Of a DNA stretch of 64,000 nt, positions 25,804 through 34,390 are shown piece by piece. The translations under genes were made by a program, and so were the position numbers. The notes beneath the pieces are model-generated. The model did not search any database, was not told the origin of the DNA, and saw only the letters and a program-made list of their open reading frames with translations. Location: NCBI GenBank assembly GCA_004100325.1, contig SCKX01000001.1, positions 665,453-729,452 of the forward strand. Reading direction: 5' to 3'. This DNA is from Candidatus Microsaccharimonas sossegonensis. GTDB lineage: Bacteria; Patescibacteriota; Saccharimonadia; Saccharimonadales; Saccharimonadaceae. Within the stretch, counting starts at the first letter, position 1. Every line of letters begins with the position of its first letter.

Positions 25804-26193
25804 CTACGTTATATTTTGTTGGACTTTTGACTTCAAGAGCTCGTAGCGTCGCCTAGTTTCAGGCTCGCTTAGACGTTTCTCACGAACTGAACTAAAACCA
25901 CTAAGTGCGACGCTTGCGACTTGCAACTCTTGGTCGTCAGGGTATTGTGAGCGACTAGCGTCAAAAACAGTACCGTCGTCAAGAACGTTTCTGTAGTGGC
26001 TTTCCTCGTGTCCATTAAAGATAGTCGTAAGCTTTTGTAAATCACCACCTAGATAATCTTGAGCAACGAGGGCAGTCGGTACACACTGACCCCTACTTGC
26101 TTTTGTCTCGCTCCACTCACTAGGAGTGCTAGACGTTTCTTGTGTCCAACTATGCTCTAAAGCGGTTTGGAGTTGAGCTTTAGTTACTTCCAC
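25804..26193 (-). CDS. YunG-like protein
   Basis: 129 residues. It matches the layout I know from Bacillus YunG: ALEHSWTQETS, then RGQCVPTALVAQDYLGGDL, SHYRNVLDDGTVFDASRSQYP. The Cys in GQC and the His in SHY could form a papain-like active pair, but no activity is established for the family as far as I know. GTG start; overlaps the end of the MazG-like gene by 10 nt, so they are coupled. Island cargo. Confidence 0.7.
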   Translation of the reverse strand: MEVTKAQLQTALEHSWTQETSSTPSEWSETKASRGQCVPTALVAQDYLGGDLQKLTTIFNGHEESHYRNVLDDGTVFDASRSQYPDDQELQVASVALSGFSSVREKRLSEPETRRRYELLKSKVQQNIT

Positions 26194-26501
26194 TGTCTTG
26201 TGCGATTCTTCTTTTCTTTATCAACGACAGCACTAAACATATCCTCGTCTAGCATACTCGCAAGCCCAAGTAGGACGATTTGAACGTCAGCGAGTTCTTC
26301 TCTTAGCTCCTGTTGTTTTGTGGTGTCAGTGAATTTCATACCGACGTGCTTACGAATAGCTTTAGCTAGTTCGCCCACTTCCTCCATTAGCATTACGAGC
26401 TTTTTGCTAGCGTCCTCCGTATTGAAACCACGCTCTATGTTCATTTGCCATATGTACTTTTGTAGCTCTGTGAGCGAGTCGTTTTTTGGTAAATCTGTCA
26501 T
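26184..26501 (-). CDS. MazG-like nucleotide pyrophosphohydrolase
   Basis: 105 residues, all-alpha. LMEEVGELAKAIRK and LREELADVQIVLLGLASMLD give the EExxE...ExxD metal site of the MazG/all-alpha NTP-PPase superfamily. Such enzymes hydrolyse (d)NTPs or modified nucleotides; those on mobile elements are often house-cleaning or defence related. TATAGT ends 6 nt before ATG (leaderless). Coupled to the YunG-like gene. Confidence 0.85.
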   Translation of the reverse strand: MTDLPKNDSLTELQKYIWQMNIERGFNTEDASKKLVMLMEEVGELAKAIRKHVGMKFTDTTKQQELREELADVQIVLLGLASMLDEDMFSAVVDKEKKNRTRQWK

Positions 26502-26525
26502 ATACCAACTATAGCACTTGGTGGA

Positions 26526-26753
26526 TTATCGACCTTGCTCGTTGCGTATGTTGGTATTCGTAAAGCCTCGTTTTGCCATAGCCTCGTCAAAGGTTTTGTC
26601 CATATACGCAAGGTCGGCGAACCAGCCCATAAAAAGATAGTTACAGGTAACGCTACGCCAAAACCAGCCTTTAGCGTTACCCAAGTACCAGCGGTTAATC
26701 GGTAGTATGAAACTACAGGCGGTTAGTATTTTGTATGTTTTGCGGTCTTTCAC
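26526..26753 (-). CDS. TM2-domain-like small membrane protein
   Basis: 75 residues from GTG 26753, chosen because AGGAG lies 8 nt before it (the GTG at 26762 is only 1 nt from that site). Two hydrophobic stretches joined by RWYLGNAKGW and ending in WFADL resemble the TM2 domain, where a turn with Arg/His-x-Tyr-x-Gly and a final Asp are typical. Downstream of a structured RNA candidate that may control it. Function unknown. Confidence 0.65.
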   Translation of the reverse strand: MKDRKTYKILTACSFILPINRWYLGNAKGWFWRSVTCNYLFMGWFADLAYMDKTFDEAMAKRGFTNTNIRNEQGR

Positions 26754-26797
26754 GTCTGACACTCCTATTTAGGTTAGTTGCCCTCAAGAGTGCCAAA

Positions 26798-26936
26798 TAA
26801 AAAAGGACACCGTGAGGTGTTCTAAGCCTTTATCACAATAAGCGTCCGCCTACTGCTTACACGGTGCCCTTTTCAAAGTCGGACACCGTCGGAGTAAATC
26901 CGTCGGTTAGTCTTATTGTGATTAAAAGCTTAGAAC
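26798..26936 (-). ncRNA. Candidate structured RNA or attenuator, island-borne
   Basis: An extended -10 TGCTATAAT (26943-26951, minus) puts the start at ~26936. The RNA then begins with a ~24-bp helix closed by its own 3' region (26912-26936 with 26819-26842). Inside, ACGGUGUCC pairs with GGGCACCGU (9 bp). At the end ACACC-UCAC-GGUGU plus UUUUUU is a terminator. The same GGGCACCGUG can instead pair 10 bp with the terminator copy CACGGUGUCC, so two folds exclude each other. It could be a free RNA of ~139 nt or a switch in front of the TM2 gene, whose start is 45 nt further on. Confidence 0.6.
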
Positions 26937-27030
26937 TTCCTCATTATAGCAAAAACAGCGTATTTTGAGCTGTTTGTTACATATACCAAAAAACAGTTGA
27001 ACCCATAAGCTAAACGGTATAATTACAAGT

Positions 27031-28848
27031 ATGGCAAGTGAGAAAAAGATAAAGCGTAAGCACCAGCGTATACCCGTCAGCCAAGAACAGCTACGCAAGA
27101 CACAGGCGATAGTAGACGCTAGCCTTAAAGATAACCCAGATATGTTTAACTTGCCCGTGAGTAAGCACAGTGTAGAGCTACTAACCGACTATTTTGTTAA
27201 AACGAAAGCCGATACAACTCGCATATTGCCGAAAGAAAAACGCCGTTATGTTATCTACTGTCGTAAATCTACCGACGACGAAAGTAAGCAAGTCCGTTCA
27301 CTCGACGACCAAGAAAAAGAGTGTCTAGAGCTTGCCGAACAACTCGATATTAAAGTGCGAAAAGAGGACATTTTTAGAGAAAGTGCGTCAGCTAAAAAGT
27401 CAGGCAAACGCCCGATATTCGACCATATCATAGAGGGCTTTCAGACAAACAAATATCACGGCTTACTAACGTGGTCGCCCGACCGTTTGTCTCGCAATAT
27501 GAAAGAGGGTGGTGAGATTATCGAGCTTGTCGATTTAGAGCGTATACAGGACTTGCACTTTAAGACGTACCAGTTTGAGAACACGCCAAACGGCAAGATG
27601 TTACTCGGTATTCTGTTTGCGACCTCCAAGCAATATAGCGATAAGTTGTCCGTCGATGTAAATAGGGGTATTACAGGTAATATCACGGAGGGTAAATATA
27701 ACGGGAGCGTCAAAAAGGGCTATTATGCCAACCCCGACACGGGCTATTTTGAACCCGACAGCCTCAACTGGCACCTCATACGTCGAGCGGTCGTTATGCG
27801 AGCTTACGAGGGCAAAACAAACCAGCAGATAGCCGATTGGTTGAACGCCTCGCATTTGAGTGTTCGCCGAAACCGAGACGATACGCCAAAGCTAGCCAAA
27901 ATGAGCAAGAAAACCGTTGGCGATACGTTTGCCGACCCGTTTTATTGCGGTGTCTATCACTATGGCGAGCGTATAGCCAACCTCAACGAGCTGTACGACT
28001 TTATGCCACTTATGACCACTGACGAGTATGTAACTATCAACAGAGCGACCGCAGACACCTTTAACGAGAAGTACGTTGGTCGAGCTACCAAGTCCACTAA
28101 ACTCGATTTTGGCGTACTCCGAGAAAAAGTCATTTGCGATTATTGTGATACGGTTATGGAGTTTCAGCGTCAGCTTATTAAAAAGGGCAAAAACAAAGGA
28201 AGTTATACTATTCGCTACTACTGCCGTAACCGAGCGAGTTGTGAGCGACACCTCAAGAAAGACGAGTGTATAGCTAAGTATGGCAAGGTGCTACCGAAAA
28301 GCGTCAGGCTCAAAACTATCGCTCCAGCTATCGAGGACACGCTACGCCACTTAACCAAGAATACCGTCGAGGCTCACAAGCGGTATATTGAACGCCTGGA
28401 GCAACAAATTATCGTCGATAAAGCCATAGCCGAGCGTAAGCTACGCCAAGCGACTAGCGACGTAAAGAAACAGCAAGTCGAGTACGACAAGTATCTCAAT
28501 CTACACCTCAACCATACGTCAGACTACAATAAGTATCACAAGGGTAAGCTAGAGCAAACAGAGACACTGCTAAACGCCTACCGAGCAACACAAGAGCAAT
28601 CCAAGAAAGATTTAGCAAAACTGAAAGAGCCGTTGCCAACCCGTGAGCAGTTTGTTGAACTCGTCAATTCGTATCTTAAAATCGCCACTACTACACAAGA
28701 TTTGGTTGAGGAGGATGCAGTGTATAACGAAGTCGTGTTGAACCTCCGAGTTCGAGACGATGTTGTATCTGTTATAAAGCTAAATCCACCATACGATTTG
28801 ATGGTGGATTTAGAGAAAATTACATTTGGTGCGCGCGAGAGGACTTGA
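27031..28848 (+). CDS. Large serine recombinase (integrase)
   Basis: 605 residues. N-terminal resolvase domain with catalytic Ser in YCRKSTDD (~80) and the DRLSRN block; recombinase domain (LIRRAVVMRAYEGKTNQQIADWLN, read in parts); zinc ribbon (CDYC ... YYCRNRASC); long coiled coil; typical of phage- and ICE-type large serine integrases. An extra ~65-residue basic N-terminus precedes the resolvase fold. TATAAT, 7 nt, ATG. The stop codon lies 22 nt inside tRNA-Leu(CAG), convergent, which marks the island end. No second att copy was found by eye. Confidence 0.93.
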   Translation: MASEKKIKRKHQRIPVSQEQLRKTQAIVDASLKDNPDMFNLPVSKHSVELLTDYFVKTKADTTRILPKEKRRYVIYCRKSTDDESKQVRSLDDQEKECLELAEQLDIKVRKEDIFRESASAKKSGKRPIFDHIIEGFQTNKYHGLLTWSPDRLSRNMKEGGEIIELVDLERIQDLHFKTYQFENTPNGKMLLGILFATSKQYSDKLSVDVNRGITGNITEGKYNGSVKKGYYANPDTGYFEPDSLNWHLIRRAVVMRAYEGKTNQQIADWLNASHLSVRRNRDDTPKLAKMSKKTVGDTFADPFYCGVYHYGERIANLNELYDFMPLMTTDEYVTINRATADTFNEKYVGRATKSTKLDFGVLREKVICDYCDTVMEFQRQLIKKGKNKGSYTIRYYCRNRASCERHLKKDECIAKYGKVLPKSVRLKTIAPAIEDTLRHLTKNTVEAHKRYIERLEQQIIVDKAIAERKLRQATSDVKKQQVEYDKYLNLHLNHTSDYNKYHKGKLEQTETLLNAYRATQEQSKKDLAKLKEPLPTREQFVELVNSYLKIATTTQDLVEEDAVYNEVVLNLRVRDDVVSVIKLNPPYDLMVDLEKITFGARERT

Positions 28849-28913
28849 ACCTCCACGTCCTTGCGGACACTAGCACCTGAAGCTAGCGCGTCTACCAATT
28901 CCGCCACGCACGC
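28827..28913 (-). tRNA. tRNA-Leu(CAG)
   Basis: 87 nt with encoded CCA. Acceptor GCGTGCG pairs with CGCGCGC; anticodon loop TTCAGGT between CTAGC/GCTAG gives CAG; long variable arm as in tRNA-Leu. Its 3' end overlaps the recombinase 3' end. Transcript would begin ~29025 and includes two copies of its own 5' half before the tRNA. Confidence 0.95.
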
Positions 28914-29019
28914 ATTTGTGTCATGTGCGCTTGCGCGTCTACTCATATTTCGACCGCCACGCACGCATTTGTGTCATGTGCGCTTGCGCGTCTACTCATA
29001 TTTCGACCGCCACGCGCGC
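28914..29019 (-). repeat. Two tandem degenerate copies of the tRNA-Leu(CAG) 5' half
   Basis: Two 53-nt units (28967-29019, 28914-28966), identical but for one base. Each starts GCG(C/T)GCGTGGCGG, has an enlarged D-loop (TCGAAATATGA) and then GTAGACGCGC as in the tRNA, then non-tRNA sequence; each abuts the next unit exactly. Confidence 0.9.
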
Positions 29020-29031
29020 ATACACCCAAAA

Positions 29032-29040
29032 ATTATAGCA
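29032..29040 (-). promoter_or_regulatory. Promoter of tRNA-Leu(CAG)
   Basis: Extended -10 TGCTATAAT on the minus strand; predicted start ~29025, about 5 nt before the first 5'-half copy. Confidence 0.65.
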
Positions 29041-29042
29041 GA

Positions 29043-30641
29043 TTACGCGACGAAATCAGAGGCATCATACGACGAGCGAAGTGCTGCAACCAGGCTTCGA
29101 ACGTCATTTTTTTGCTTGACGCCAGGATTGAGTGTTCCAAAAGGATCAAAAATCGCTCGGACTTGTTCGTAAAGATGAGCTTCTGATTCGGTAATTGTCG
29201 ACCAGGCAGCATTTGCTTTCAAGCGTCCTTCCCCACCATCGCTGACAAATGCACCATCCGTTTTTGCTACCAATTCCGCATAATCGCTTATTAAACGAAA
29301 GAGTTTCTGTTTATCGCCTATCACATCTAGTTTTAACACGGGGTATGCATCAATCGTACCTGTTAAGACATTCACGGCAAGTGGCATTTCAATATGATGT
29401 TTCGTAGTCAGTTCAGCCAGTGCATCGGTGAATGCTTCGCGTCGGCCAGCTGGAACGAACGCACCGTCAATAATTGGCAGTGCAATGCGATCGTCTTCAC
29501 CAGCTCGTCGCAGCGAATCGCCAATCTCACGCACCGCTTCAAATTCATCGATTTGATGATCGGAAGAGTCTATCATGCTAACGTTTAACTTTTTTAAAAG
29601 TTTTCGCATCTTCTTGAGCTTACCAAGCTGTGCTCTATGACTGGCATCATTAAATTCAATATAAATGGCCGTACCAATCGATTCAACAGAACCAAGAAGA
29701 CTCGCCTGTGCACCCAGTTCGGCAGCACGTCGAAATAATTCACCATCAAATGTGCGTAGTACGGACGGTTTTAATTCGATTAAACGGTCGGAGATATCTC
29801 GCGCCATTGCCGCATTTTCTACTACAGCAACGGCAATCATCTGCTCATTATAAAACTGTGCCTTAAGGACGATCTCCGAAATAATACCGAGCGTCCCCTG
29901 ACTCCCCACAAAAAGTGGAGTTAAATCGAACGAGCCATCCTTTTCTTTGACAAGAGAAAGGCTCCTATACCCAGTGTTATCCCGGGTTGTATCGGCTGCA
30001 AGTTGTTTGATAAGCTCGCTATTATCCTCGATGAGTCCTTCAATCTTACGGTAAATTTCGCCTTCGAAAGTTTGGAGACCGAGTTTTTTATTGAGCTCGT
30101 GTTTACTTACGCGCCCTGTTTCAATCAAATCACCATTTGCGAGGACAATTTCGAGCTTTTCAACAGCTTTACTTATCTCTCCTTGATCACCCAACGCATT
30201 TGTTGCGATTGCACCGCCAATTGTACCGTAGCGTTCATTGTGAGGATAATTTGGCAGCGCCAATCCCTGCCATTTTAATGCGTTATTAAGTGTTTCAAAG
30301 GTTACACCTGGTTGTACTTGAATCAGGCGGTCTTTAGTGAGCAATGTTAAAATGTTATTGAGATGGGTCGTCATACTCACTACCACTCCCTTACCAATAG
30401 CAGCACCAGTTGCATCACTTCCCATGCCTCGTACCGTCAGACTCAGTGGATGACCCTTTTCAGCCAGCTGCCAAGAAAAACGAGCAACCTTACGAATATC
30501 ATTCGTAATACGAGGAAAGGCAATTATTTCTGGTGTGATTGTTAAGACACTTCCGTCACGACTATAGCGGCGACGCATTGCTTTTGAACTAGTTACCTCA
30601 CCAAGTAAATGCTCATTCAGATATACTGCAATTTTATTCAT
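29043..30641 (-). CDS. GlcD-type FAD-linked oxidoreductase
   Basis: 532 residues from ATG 30641 (MNKIAVYLNEH; upstream in-frame codons do not look coding and a TGCTATCAT box lies before this ATG). The FAD_binding_4 (PCMH) domain shows LTVRGMGSDATGAAIGKGVVV and RYGTIGGAIATNALGDQG; the C-terminal half matches the FAD-oxidase C domain. Such flavoproteins oxidise 2-hydroxy acids like D-lactate or glycolate; a substrate cannot be read from sequence. No Fe-S domain is attached. It lies between two tRNA-Leu genes. Confidence 0.85.
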   Translation of the reverse strand: MNKIAVYLNEHLLGEVTSSKAMRRRYSRDGSVLTITPEIIAFPRITNDIRKVARFSWQLAEKGHPLSLTVRGMGSDATGAAIGKGVVVSMTTHLNNILTLLTKDRLIQVQPGVTFETLNNALKWQGLALPNYPHNERYGTIGGAIATNALGDQGEISKAVEKLEIVLANGDLIETGRVSKHELNKKLGLQTFEGEIYRKIEGLIEDNSELIKQLAADTTRDNTGYRSLSLVKEKDGSFDLTPLFVGSQGTLGIISEIVLKAQFYNEQMIAVAVVENAAMARDISDRLIELKPSVLRTFDGELFRRAAELGAQASLLGSVESIGTAIYIEFNDASHRAQLGKLKKMRKLLKKLNVSMIDSSDHQIDEFEAVREIGDSLRRAGEDDRIALPIIDGAFVPAGRREAFTDALAELTTKHHIEMPLAVNVLTGTIDAYPVLKLDVIGDKQKLFRLISDYAELVAKTDGAFVSDGGEGRLKANAAWSTITESEAHLYEQVRAIFDPFGTLNPGVKQKNDVRSLVAALRSSYDASDFVA

Positions 30642-30705
30642 TTCCGTCCGCTTCCCTCTAACATTCGTATGCTTTGCATCTATGATAGCACAAGCAAGTT
30701 GGGTC

Positions 30706-30734
30706 GTGACAAACAATCTCGTCTCTGTTATAAT
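30706..30734 (+). promoter_or_regulatory. Promoter of tRNA-Leu(TAG)
   Basis: GTGACA (30706-30711), 17-bp spacer, TATAAT (30729-30734) with TGT in front (extended -10). Predicted start ~30741. Confidence 0.8.
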
Positions 30735-30744
30735 CCAGTGTAAT

Positions 30745-30800
30745 GCGCGCGTGGTGGATCTAGGTATGAGTAGACACGCTGCGTCGCAAAAAAAATATGT
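30745..30800 (+). repeat. Degenerate copy of the tRNA-Leu(TAG) 5' half
   Basis: 56 nt: GCGCGCGTGGTGGA, a changed and longer D-loop, GTAGACACGCT, then an A-rich tail directly joined to the tRNA. The segment TATGAGTAGAC is identical to that in the copies before tRNA-Leu(CAG). Confidence 0.9.
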
Positions 30801-30885
30801 GCGCGCGTGGTGGAATTGGTAGACACGCTAGCCTTAGGAGCTAGTGCTTTACGGCGTGAAGGTTCAAGTCCTTTCGCGCGCACCA
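30801..30885 (+). tRNA. tRNA-Leu(TAG)
   Basis: 85 nt with encoded CCA. Acceptor GCGCGCG/CGCGCGC; anticodon loop CTTAGGA between CTAGC and GCTAG gives TAG; class II variable arm. Followed at once by a terminator. Confidence 0.95.
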
Positions 30886-30922
30886 AATCAAAAAGCAGAT
30901 CGACTGGTCTGCTTTTTGATTT
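30885..30922. terminator. Terminator of tRNA-Leu(TAG), also usable by rsmD
   Basis: AAATCAAAAAGCAGA and TCTGCTTTTTGATTT form a 15-bp perfect stem with an 8-nt loop and T-rich flanks on both strands. Confidence 0.9.
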
Positions 30923-30973
30923 GGTTCTCGATAATAGCAAAAACTGAACCGAACTAACGAATAAAGAAGACGC

Positions 30974-31516
30974 CTAAGCGCCTTCTTTTCGGTAAAAGGC
31001 GATCGCCGCATTTCCGTAACTACGATTGTCCACCACAACAACTCCCGTTTCGGCCAGCGTCTCACTTCTACCTGGGTATGATAGTACCATAAGCCCATTA
31101 GGTTTTAATAGTCTAAACAATTCGGTAACTGTGGATAACTGCGGGTCATGATACGGTGGATCGGCAAAAATAATATCAAATTGCCGATGTGATGCTTTCG
31201 CCCAACTCGCAACCGGTGCTTTGACGAGTGTTGCATCACGTTCTACGCCAAGAAGCGCAATGTTGCTATTAATAATAGTTTGTGCAACCCGGTCACGCTC
31301 GATAAACGTGACTTTTCTTGCTCCACGGCTTAGAGCTTCAAGACCTAGCGCTCCACTTCCAGCAAATGCATCAAGCACTTCGGCATCTTTTAATTCAAAT
31401 CCAATTTTATTAAAAATAGCATTGCGTATGCGCTCTCCCATCGGATGCGTACGGTTGGTGCCAGAGCCTTCAATAATTCTCCCACCATACAGCCCGGAAA
31501 TTAAACGAACGTTCAC
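30974..31516 (-). CDS. rsmD: 16S rRNA (guanine966-N2)-methyltransferase RsmD
   Basis: 180 residues. RLISGLYGGRIIEG and THPMGERIRNAIFN match the RsmD N-terminus; VLDAFAGSGALGLEALSRG is SAM motif I and FADPPY the catalytic motif IV. It methylates G966 in the 30S P-site region. GTG start overlaps the upstream gene's TGA (GTGA). Last gene of a tyrS-recG-31513-rsmD run. Confidence 0.94.
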   Translation of the reverse strand: MNVRLISGLYGGRIIEGSGTNRTHPMGERIRNAIFNKIGFELKDAEVLDAFAGSGALGLEALSRGARKVTFIERDRVAQTIINSNIALLGVERDATLVKAPVASWAKASHRQFDIIFADPPYHDPQLSTVTELFRLLKPNGLMVLSYPGRSETLAETGVVVVDNRSYGNAAIAFYRKEGA

Positions 31517-32328
31517 TTTGTTTCCCTATTCATATCAAGAGACGTATGCCAACCTAGTACGACAGCACGGACAATGAGTGGTACGAGCTCCTCTCGAACA
31601 GCTTTGGCAAGCTGACGATTCCACCCATTCTTTGAGTATGTTTCATATGTTTCAAGCTTCACAACCTGCTGCATAATCTTTGCAAATGTTTTTGGATAGC
31701 CATCCTGTCGTAAAGCAAGTAGATCCGACTTTGTTATTTCAATGTTTCCAAACGTATTGCCTAGAATTGCTGTTGCGACACCGAATTCATACAGGAAATG
31801 ATTCATAAAAATACCGTGCTTCCCCCAATACTGCCAATTTTTTGACAACGTATCACGACGATTCTTACCTTTTATAATGTTTTTTTCGCGAACGCTGCTG
31901 CGTTCATGATGGGGCATGCCAAATAGCTCTTCAATTTTATCCGCTAAAGGATAGTGATGTGCCGGTGTGAGTCCGTCGACAATAGCATGCGCCATCCAGG
32001 CCGCTTCAAACGATGCCCGCTCCACATTTTTTTTCTTCAGTGCATGTGCCAGGTTGATTTGATGATCTTGAATCATTCGCATGACTTCGTTATCATATGC
32101 GAACGTTTCGGGCGCAATAAAATGCCATGGCTCGTCTACTGAAGGACTTTTTCTTTTAATGCCATCTGGTCCATTGTCTCCTTCAAAATGAAGAATATCT
32201 TTTGCCGTCGGAAAAAACTCTTTGCCAATAAGAAGGGGTTTTAGGTGTTGTCGTGCAATCCTATCAATTCGTTGATGGACACCAATGAATCGACCAGATT
32301 TTTTACCGTAGGTGGTTCCTGCATACAT
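31513..32328 (-). CDS. Helical protein resembling zinc-dependent phospholipase C
   Basis: 271 residues, all-helical in appearance, no signal peptide. Histidines and acids occur in a pattern like zinc-dependent PLC / S1-P1 nucleases: EPWHFIAPET, AWMAHAIVDGLTPAHHYP, and HFEGDNG. Those families hold three zinc ions with His/Asp/Trp ligands. The match is by motif layout only, and the normal secretion signal is absent, so activity is uncertain. It lies 31 nt after recG and overlaps rsmD by 4 nt, so it belongs to that operon. Confidence 0.6.
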   Translation of the reverse strand: MYAGTTYGKKSGRFIGVHQRIDRIARQHLKPLLIGKEFFPTAKDILHFEGDNGPDGIKRKSPSVDEPWHFIAPETFAYDNEVMRMIQDHQINLAHALKKKNVERASFEAAWMAHAIVDGLTPAHHYPLADKIEELFGMPHHERSSVREKNIIKGKNRRDTLSKNWQYWGKHGIFMNHFLYEFGVATAILGNTFGNIEITKSDLLALRQDGYPKTFAKIMQQVVKLETYETYSKNGWNRQLAKAVREELVPLIVRAVVLGWHTSLDMNRETK

Positions 32329-32359
32329 AGTGAAGTCTTAATTTGAAATACTCATGAAG

Positions 32360-34390
32360 TTAATTTAATGTTGTCAGACGCTGGTATTGCGTGACGTCAC
32401 GGTGTAGTTGATGATAGTGAAGCAGATCAGCCCCAGATTCAACAAATGCCTTGGCGGCTTTTTGTGTGCGTGCTATCAGTTTTGTATCTGCCAAGCTCGC
32501 CACTTGTAAGTTTAATTCACCGTGCTGTGCACGTCCATAGATTTCACCAGGACCACGAAGCCGCAAATCTACTTCTGCAAGGTAAAATCCATCGTTACTT
32601 TTTTCGACCTCTTTTAAGCGACGACTGGGAGTCTTCGATGAGCTCACCATTAAGTAGCAGTAACTTTGATGAGCACTTCGCCCCACCCGTCCACGGAGTT
32701 GATGGAGCTGCGCCAAGCCAAAATGGTCAGCATCTTCAATCAGAATAACAGTTGCGTTCGGAACATCAACACCAACCTCCACCACAGTTGTACTAACCAG
32801 GATGTCTATTTTACCCGCGGTAAATCGTTTCATTATTTCATTTTTTTCTGTGGCTGTCATTTTGCCATGAAGCAACCCGATCGTACGGTGTTTGAATTCT
32901 TTTTGATCGAGGCGTTTAAATTCAGCTTGAACACTTTTTAGTTCATTATCAGGATTGTTATCAATCAAGCTACAGATAACGTACGCCTGACGACCTTTAA
33001 TGAGCTGCGATTCGATCAAGCCATACAGCTGCATACGACTATTTGGAGACCAGATTTTCGTTGCAACTGGTGTGCGATTTTTAGGCAGTTCATTCAACAC
33101 CGATACATCTAATTCACCATAAACGGTCAACGCAAGGCTACGGGGGATGGGTGTCGCTGTCATCGCGAGAAGGTGCGGCATGTGTGCCGACTTTAAAAGC
33201 AGAGCGTGGCGCTGATTGACGCCAAATCGGTGCTGTTCATCGATCACAACAAACCCAAGCCGGTGAAAATTGACAGACGACTGAATTAACGCGTGTGTAC
33301 CGACAACCACATCGACATCACCTTTCTTAATAGCGTCGTACAGTGTTTGACGTGCTTTTCCCTTCACACTTCCTGTCAGCAGTCCAACTGTGACACCAAA
33401 TGGTGATAATAATGTACTCAAAGTCTGGGCGTGCTGCGTTGCCAAAATTTCCGTTGGCGCCATAACAGCAGTTTGAAAGCCTTCATGCGCCGCCTGTCTG
33501 GCGGCAAGTCCCGCGACAACCGTCTTGCCAGACCCAACATCACCCTGAAGTAACCGGTTCATTGGAACCTTTTTTTCAAAATCCTGTAAAATGTCCCAGG
33601 CGGCCCTTCGCTGAGCCCCAGTAAGTTCGAAGGGGAGTTTCAGGACAAATGCTTTTACGATAGTTCGATCAAAGTGAATACGCCAACCTCTTAATTTTTG
33701 ATTTTCAATCCGATTTAATTGACTAGCCAGCAGCAGTGCAAACAATTCTTCAAACCCAATTCGCTCCTTTGCCTTTGAAATATCATCAATTGCCTCGGGA
33801 AAATGTATTCCCAGTAAAGCATCGCTATGGCTAACCAGGTTTTCTGATTTTACAATTGATATTGGGAGTGTCTCTGGAACCATCGACATGAGGGGACGAA
33901 GTTCGTTCATGATCTTACGAACAAGCGTTGTTTTCAAGCCATGAATCGAACGATATATTGGCAATATCCGATCTGTATGTACGGGCATATCACTTACTTT
34001 TTCGGCGCTTGGGTTTGTCAGTTGATATTTGTTAAAGTTAAATTCAAACACTCCAGAGAAATAAAACTCCTCGCCAGATTTTAATTGGGTTTCACGATAC
34101 GGCTGATTAAACCAGACTGCCTGCAACTTGCCGGTTTCATCAGCAAGAGTCGCAGTCGTGATACGAAGGCCTCGTCGCACCGGACGGGTGGTAATCTTTT
34201 CGCAGCGTGCTTTGATTGTCATTTTTCCTGGATGAATATCGGCAATAGTAGTGACGTGTGAAAAGTCCTCGTACGCTCTGGGCAGAAAATGAATTAAGTC
34301 ATTGACCGTATGTAAGCCAGCTGCCTCAAACTCTGCAGCTGTTTTTTCGCCGATGCCCTTTATCTGTTGCAATGGCACATTAAGATTCAT
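32360..34390 (-). CDS. recG: ATP-dependent DNA helicase RecG
   Basis: 676 residues, normal length. N-terminal wedge/OB domain; helicase motifs GDVGSGKT (I), DEQHRFGVNQR (II, Walker B), MTATPIPRSLAL (III), QLHQLRGRVGRS (VI). It remodels stalled forks and Holliday junctions. 24 nt after tyrS on the same strand. Confidence 0.97.
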   Translation of the reverse strand: MNLNVPLQQIKGIGEKTAAEFEAAGLHTVNDLIHFLPRAYEDFSHVTTIADIHPGKMTIKARCEKITTRPVRRGLRITTATLADETGKLQAVWFNQPYRETQLKSGEEFYFSGVFEFNFNKYQLTNPSAEKVSDMPVHTDRILPIYRSIHGLKTTLVRKIMNELRPLMSMVPETLPISIVKSENLVSHSDALLGIHFPEAIDDISKAKERIGFEELFALLLASQLNRIENQKLRGWRIHFDRTIVKAFVLKLPFELTGAQRRAAWDILQDFEKKVPMNRLLQGDVGSGKTVVAGLAARQAAHEGFQTAVMAPTEILATQHAQTLSTLLSPFGVTVGLLTGSVKGKARQTLYDAIKKGDVDVVVGTHALIQSSVNFHRLGFVVIDEQHRFGVNQRHALLLKSAHMPHLLAMTATPIPRSLALTVYGELDVSVLNELPKNRTPVATKIWSPNSRMQLYGLIESQLIKGRQAYVICSLIDNNPDNELKSVQAEFKRLDQKEFKHRTIGLLHGKMTATEKNEIMKRFTAGKIDILVSTTVVEVGVDVPNATVILIEDADHFGLAQLHQLRGRVGRSAHQSYCYLMVSSSKTPSRRLKEVEKSNDGFYLAEVDLRLRGPGEIYGRAQHGELNLQVASLADTKLIARTQKAAKAFVESGADLLHYHQLHRDVTQYQRLTTLN

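Follow-up and report, generated by a model that had tools for sequence, protein, structure and literature searches.

According to an earlier report, RNA hairpins are both created and maintained by replication template switching, whose signature in RNA genes is the inverted repeat (PMC8794818). The leader units described here resemble such mutations in carrying reverse-complement copies of neighbouring sequence and in forming perfect stems in RNA genes. Likenesses also extend to T-box leaders, which sense tRNA and provide a functional analogy as leader RNAs with alternative pairings near tRNA biology; to REP/BIME and other dispersed palindromes, which are also short hairpins and are matched in their dispersal by an insert from Bacteroidota; and to the tRNA pseudogenes and partial repeats of integrative elements, in which a truncated tRNA copy stands beside an intact tRNA. 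No earlier description of tRNA-leader copies, or of the palindrome reported below, was found in the open-access papers searched. The pattern at the present locus and its relatives points to a copying process rather than to a proven switch.

Leader units at tRNA genes of the source genome

The window, which is the whole 64,000-nucleotide stretch of DNA that was analysed, holds a complete tRNA-Leu(CAG) gene on its minus strand (28827..28913; ARAGORN and Rfam RF00005). Read along that strand, a TATAAT resembling a -10 box (29032..29037, minus; in its extended form TGCTATAAT) is followed by 12 nt, by a promoter-proximal unit 1 (28967..29019, minus), by unit 2 (28914..28966, minus), and by the tRNA, which unit 2 adjoins. 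A scan with the consensus gave no good match to a -35 element for this TATAAT. The two units are direct repeats of 53 nt, detected as a 53-nt tandem family, and differ at a single base (GCGTGCG versus GCGCGCG, the latter being the acceptor copy of unit 1). Each begins with nucleotides 1-13 of the tRNA (13/13 for unit 2), comprising the 5' acceptor strand and the 5' side of the D-stem. There follows an 11-nt insert, tcgaaatatga, in the position where the tRNA has AATTG, making the loop 6 nt longer and free of the GG pair. The unit then returns to tRNA sequence with GTAGACGCGC, corresponding to nucleotides 20-29, and leaves it again in a non-tRNA tail, which in unit 2 is aagcgcacatgacacaaat. This anatomy, described in an earlier sequence-only reading of the region, is confirmed in each of its parts. 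A chance origin of these units is excluded by the 53-nt repeats together with an acceptor identity above the permutation maximum.

A serine recombinase gene (27031-28848, plus; Resolvase and Recombinase domains by domain match) has its last codons antisense inside the 3' end of tRNA-Leu(CAG), and is probably an element, or the remnant of one, integrated at that 3' end.

At a distance of 1.9 kb and on the opposite strand lies tRNA-Leu(TAG) (30801..30885, plus; tRNA gene call), which has a unit of the same build that the earlier reading overlooked. This unit (30745..30800, plus) consists of GCGCGCGTGGTGG, the insert atctaggtatga, GTAGACACGC and a tail, and matches its own tRNA at 14/14 positions at an offset of -56. 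A promoter-like GTGACA-17-TATAAT, found by sequence scan (30706..30734, plus), ends 10 nt before it. Rfam models, searched across 26000-33000 to E=5, returned only tRNA matches above the gathering score, with no leader or riboswitch, T-box or other.

When the 39 tRNA genes of the source genome (G000) were surveyed together with their upstream DNA, counting as a unit any match of at least 13/14 to a gene's own first 14 nt, units were present upstream of Leu(CAG), Leu(TAG), Leu(TAA) and Arg(CCT) only. By the same threshold the other 35 of the 39 genes, among them Leu(GAG) and Leu(CAA), were without one. The Arg(CCT) leader (L069; G000 C1:339048-339127) joins 19 nt of its own 5' end to the reverse complement of its own D-arm; this reverse complement, CTATCCAGTTGA, is carried by the Arg(CCT) unit in two genomes, and within the genus the unit is common to G000 and G396 only.

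Distribution in Saccharibacteria and Bacteroidota

A class-wide search of 393 Saccharibacteria genomes, with a pattern placing the copy 30-60 nt upstream of a complete tRNA-Leu, matched 18, of which a few are chance matches or of another type; the reversed control pattern gave zero matches among the genomes matched by the forward pattern. Leu(TAA) units and decayed ones escape the pattern, since it demands GTGGYGG, and pattern searches of this kind bias which units come into view. Within the genus, orthologous positions were inspected without the GTGGYGG filter, and units were found at 6/11 CAG, 6/17 TAG, 3/16 TAA, 2/13 CAA and 2/13 Arg(CCT) loci, sometimes in tandem or decayed. Among close relatives in the one genus, the same locus carries a unit in some species and lacks it in others; the CAG loci of G059 and G095 have only a small leader hairpin. 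On a 13-genome tree, built from the FAD-oxidase protein encoded between the two window tRNAs and with several forks poorly supported, each locus requires no fewer than 3-4 changes. Units also co-occur by genome, 8.0 within-genome pairs being expected and 21 observed (p<=5e-5 by permutation; shared ancestry is removed neither here nor in the other permutation tests). Four genomes (G000, G396, G072, G164) have three units or more, and five others (G077, G393, G375, G383, G395) have none. The sequence-only reading had held a conserved function to be unlikely should relatives lack the copies at these loci, and on this point the result is mixed, copies being absent at some loci and carried at others. 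Its suggestion that the copies are remnants of repeated partial duplication gains support from this presence and absence at orthologous loci, from the build of each unit on its local tRNA, and from the tandem and decayed units.

Other hairpins and copies occur in the class. Leu(CAA) leaders without units in the genus (e.g. L235, L236, L239) often have a different small hairpin, which lies downstream of a conserved TTGTACAAT promoter. In other Saccharibacteria families a second type of 5' copy precedes tRNA-Leu (L004, L006, L026), with an acceptor unlike that of the downstream tRNA and a tail bearing GTAGTRA..TCTGGA or similar. An assembly artefact was rejected as the source of the units, since many independent assemblies carry them. 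A dispersed repeat in Saccharibacteria was likewise rejected: the D-stem/tail inverted-repeat pattern and the ATTACGTA insert pattern match tRNA-Leu leaders and one unrelated site each.

Beyond the class, a scan of GTDB contigs yielded mostly chance matches, yet a clear excess of perfect acceptor matches (at least 18 with 7/7), which among the matches listed came mostly from Saccharibacteria or Bacteroidota. In Bacteroidota a palindrome, TCCCGATAGNTATCGGGA, stands as the insert where the D-loop would be, for instance in Mesonia (L102), Robiginitalea marina (L171), L193 and Gramella (L157). It is dispersed, with 4 to 26 matches per strand elsewhere in those genomes, and is nested in itself once (L303). 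Upstream copies of two other tRNAs are interrupted by the palindrome CCCGATAGCTATCGGG: a tRNA-Met copy of Gramella (L278) has it in the D-loop, a tRNA-Phe copy of Robiginitalea marina (L280) close to the anticodon loop. The Leu arrangement is rare in Flavobacteriales (1/296 genomes), and a generic, non-Leu D-arm with the palindrome was found in 0/296 Flavobacteriales genomes, which makes the tRNA-Met case a rare one. Several Flavobacteriaceae (L081, L096, L110, L151) have the 5' half of a different tRNA-Leu upstream of a tRNA-Leu; these halves reach through the anticodon arm and differ in acceptor from the downstream gene.

Local frames, shared inserts and the origin of the units

The tRNA-derived part of a unit (nucleotides 1-13 and 20-29, here termed the frame) follows the gene next to it. 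Across 27 Saccharibacteria units the acceptor copy agrees with its own tRNA at a mean of 6.59/7 positions, where 2000 permutations reached at most 5.33; the D-stem pair Y11/R24 agrees with the own tRNA in 25/27. Inserts are shared more widely: ATTACGTAnnATGC-like inserts occur at the CAA, CAG, TAG and TAA loci of a single genome (G072), and a TAG unit (L016) and a CAG unit (L122) have identical 13-nt inserts. Where units with inserts 70-100% identical stand before different local tRNAs, both follow their own tRNA at 150/163 of the sites at which the tRNAs differ, a descriptive count taken over overlapping, non-independent pairs. Among units with identical local tRNAs, frames average 94% identity and inserts 59%. 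Inserts thus appear to pass between genes, with frames that are local. Identical inserts within frames that differ at 5-6 sites, all of them locally correct, are hard to reach by stepwise point substitution, but would result from copying in which the frame is made anew on the recipient gene.

The explanation we prefer, to which we give a chance just short of even, is recurrent local partial duplication combined with hairpin-forming template switching, or with short-tract or cassette copying between leucine tRNA genes, the products being tolerated. The recipient gene's own 5' third (nucleotides 1-13 and 20-29) would be duplicated locally, through replication template switching or very short-tract copying; an insert common to other tRNA-Leu genes, or in Bacteroidota the dispersed palindrome, would be copied into the duplicate's D-loop; and the reverse-complement tail would arise by fold-back synthesis. 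Lying between promoter and tRNA, the unit would be expected in the primary transcript, from which RNase P would remove it, and with the downstream tRNA intact the cell would survive. We infer these mutational steps, together with the near-neutrality of the units; their transcription and processing would follow from the promoter-like boxes. A reverse-complement copy of nearby sequence that forms a stem, as expected of template switching, is found in the tail, to which the 3' D-stem copy (ACRCGC) is complementary beyond permuted tails (p=0.0005), and in the Arg tail, which is the reverse complement of the D-arm. The 3' D-stem copy is also complementary to the 5' D-stem copy (p=0.0015), largely as a consequence of local tracking, and the acceptor copy has no specific complementarity to the tail (p=0.35 by permutation). 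Because template switching itself yields reverse-complement copies, base-pair covariation in the units is not by itself proof of selection; a MAFFT/RNAalifold analysis of the units gave a weak consensus, as insert lengths vary and the frame hardly does. Counting against the template-switch reading are the near confinement of units to tRNA-Leu (and Arg(CCT)) in Saccharibacteria, a restriction that a blind mutational process does not predict, the clustering of units by genome, and the 94% frame against 59% insert identity, which looks like selection.

The persistence of the hairpin form would, on the preferred explanation, reflect lesser interference with tRNA folding than a plain copy causes. 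Predicted equilibrium folding of unmodified RNA (ViennaRNA), which ignores kinetics, proteins and modifications, gives the tRNA alone a probability of about 0.99 of pairing its own acceptor. Preceded by a plain copy, in which the native D-loop is restored, the tRNA is predicted to pair its own acceptor with a probability of 0.11, and to have its 3' strand captured with one of 0.82. With the real units of 27 loci these values are 0.54 and 0.40. Own-acceptor pairing is higher with the real unit than with the native-D-loop version at 26/27 loci (p=1.4e-7), decoy pairing is lower for the real unit than for the plain copy at 24/27, and shuffling insert and tail lowers own-acceptor pairing to 0.35 (p=0.004). 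For the window precursor with both units, own-acceptor pairing is predicted at 0.93 and the two decoy pairings at 0.0006 and 0.008.

The strongest alternative, possible although somewhat unlikely in our estimate, is that the units are a selected cis-acting leader, an RNA switch or insulator for the folding, processing or stability of the tRNA-Leu precursor. The 3' copy of the D-stem would have either the 5' copy or the tail as its partner, and the tail could pair with the D-stem of the tRNA itself as well. The two mutually exclusive partners of the 3' copy argue for such a switch, as do the higher conservation of frames than of inserts, the restriction to Leu and the clustering in genomes; genuine TATAAT boxes would, moreover, place the whole unit within the transcript. 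Against it, most species of the genus lack units at the same loci, the window precursor is predicted to fold without capture by the copies, most changes in the acceptor copy disrupt pairing, and the arrangement is rare in Flavobacteriales. The decoy or switch proposed by the sequence-only reading is thus weakened by the high own-acceptor pairing of the window precursor and by the pairing-breaking changes; some other loci are predicted to be decoy-dominated, and a switch may hold at some of these.

We also consider unlikely, as a whole, a micro-element of tRNA-Leu leaders, namely a 10-30-nt hairpin cassette that would spread between isoacceptors, re-creating the recipient's 5' sequence on both sides, and that may also act as a precursor folding switch. 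A mobile hairpin micro-element, REP- or MITE-like, that a trans-acting enzyme would insert into the D-loop once the 5' segment of a tRNA has been duplicated, is quite improbable. It would account for inserts common to loci with different frames, for the clustering of units by genome, and for a Bacteroidota insert that is dispersed and once nested. However, the Saccharibacteria inserts were found essentially at tRNA-Leu only, and no target-site duplication of fixed length can be separated from the tRNA copy. The Y1 transposase of the IS200/RAYT type (PF01797) is absent from 17/17 genomes of the genus, with control genomes positive, and reverse transcriptases, present in 6/17, do not track the presence of units.

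A simple acceptor-strand decoy, with copies and true 5' strand as rivals for the 3' strand of the tRNA, is highly improbable. The close match of acceptor copies to their own tRNA speaks for it, as does predicted decoy pairing of at least 0.8 at several other loci (e.g. L005, L022, L076), where the copy is predicted to win. At the window locus, however, capture of the 3' acceptor strand, which the sequence-only reading had rightly noted as possible by sequence, is predicted to be rare (P<=0.008). Across the loci folded, real units are mostly less decoy-like than plain copies, and of the deviations in the acceptor copies of Saccharibacteria 8/11 disrupt the helix with the 3' strand, so that this pairing is not conserved. 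As most deviations do so, the acceptor decoy is not what is maintained, and a self-folded D-arm hairpin comes closer. That the units are a scar left by an integrative element with the tRNA gene as its target is barely conceivable, for although the serine recombinase gene ends inside the 3' end of tRNA-Leu(CAG) (at 28848), it is the 5' end that is copied, the tRNA 3' end is present in the window only in its two complete tRNAs, and other Leu and Arg loci carry units, all of which bears out the earlier view that the recombinase next to the tRNA fails to account for the copies.

An insert common to several genes, set in a frame copied from the local one, makes a sharp and unusual signature, through which the copying of short hairpins between paralogous RNA genes becomes directly testable; the series of presence and absence within the genus offers natural filled and empty sites. 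The units also bear on the tolerance of an essential tRNA towards a rival copy of its 5' end carried in one and the same transcript.

Comparison with described systems

Set against the systems introduced at the outset, the units differ from each in a definable way. In contrast to the tRNA repeats of integrative elements, the copied part is the 5' rather than the 3' end, it lies between promoter and tRNA, and it recurs at several isoacceptors without an element. Compared with T-box leaders, the units precede a tRNA gene, mimic the 5' part of a tRNA and have no Rfam match. The many copies typical of REP/RAYT systems are found for the Bacteroidota palindrome but not for the Saccharibacteria inserts, which are non-dispersed, occur without a Y1 transposase, and are always framed by local tRNA sequence. 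Template-switch mutations (PMC8794818) share with the units the reverse-complement copying of neighbouring sequence; in the units this is joined by a direct copy, within the leader, of the 5' end of the gene itself, and by an insert that is common to paralogous genes.
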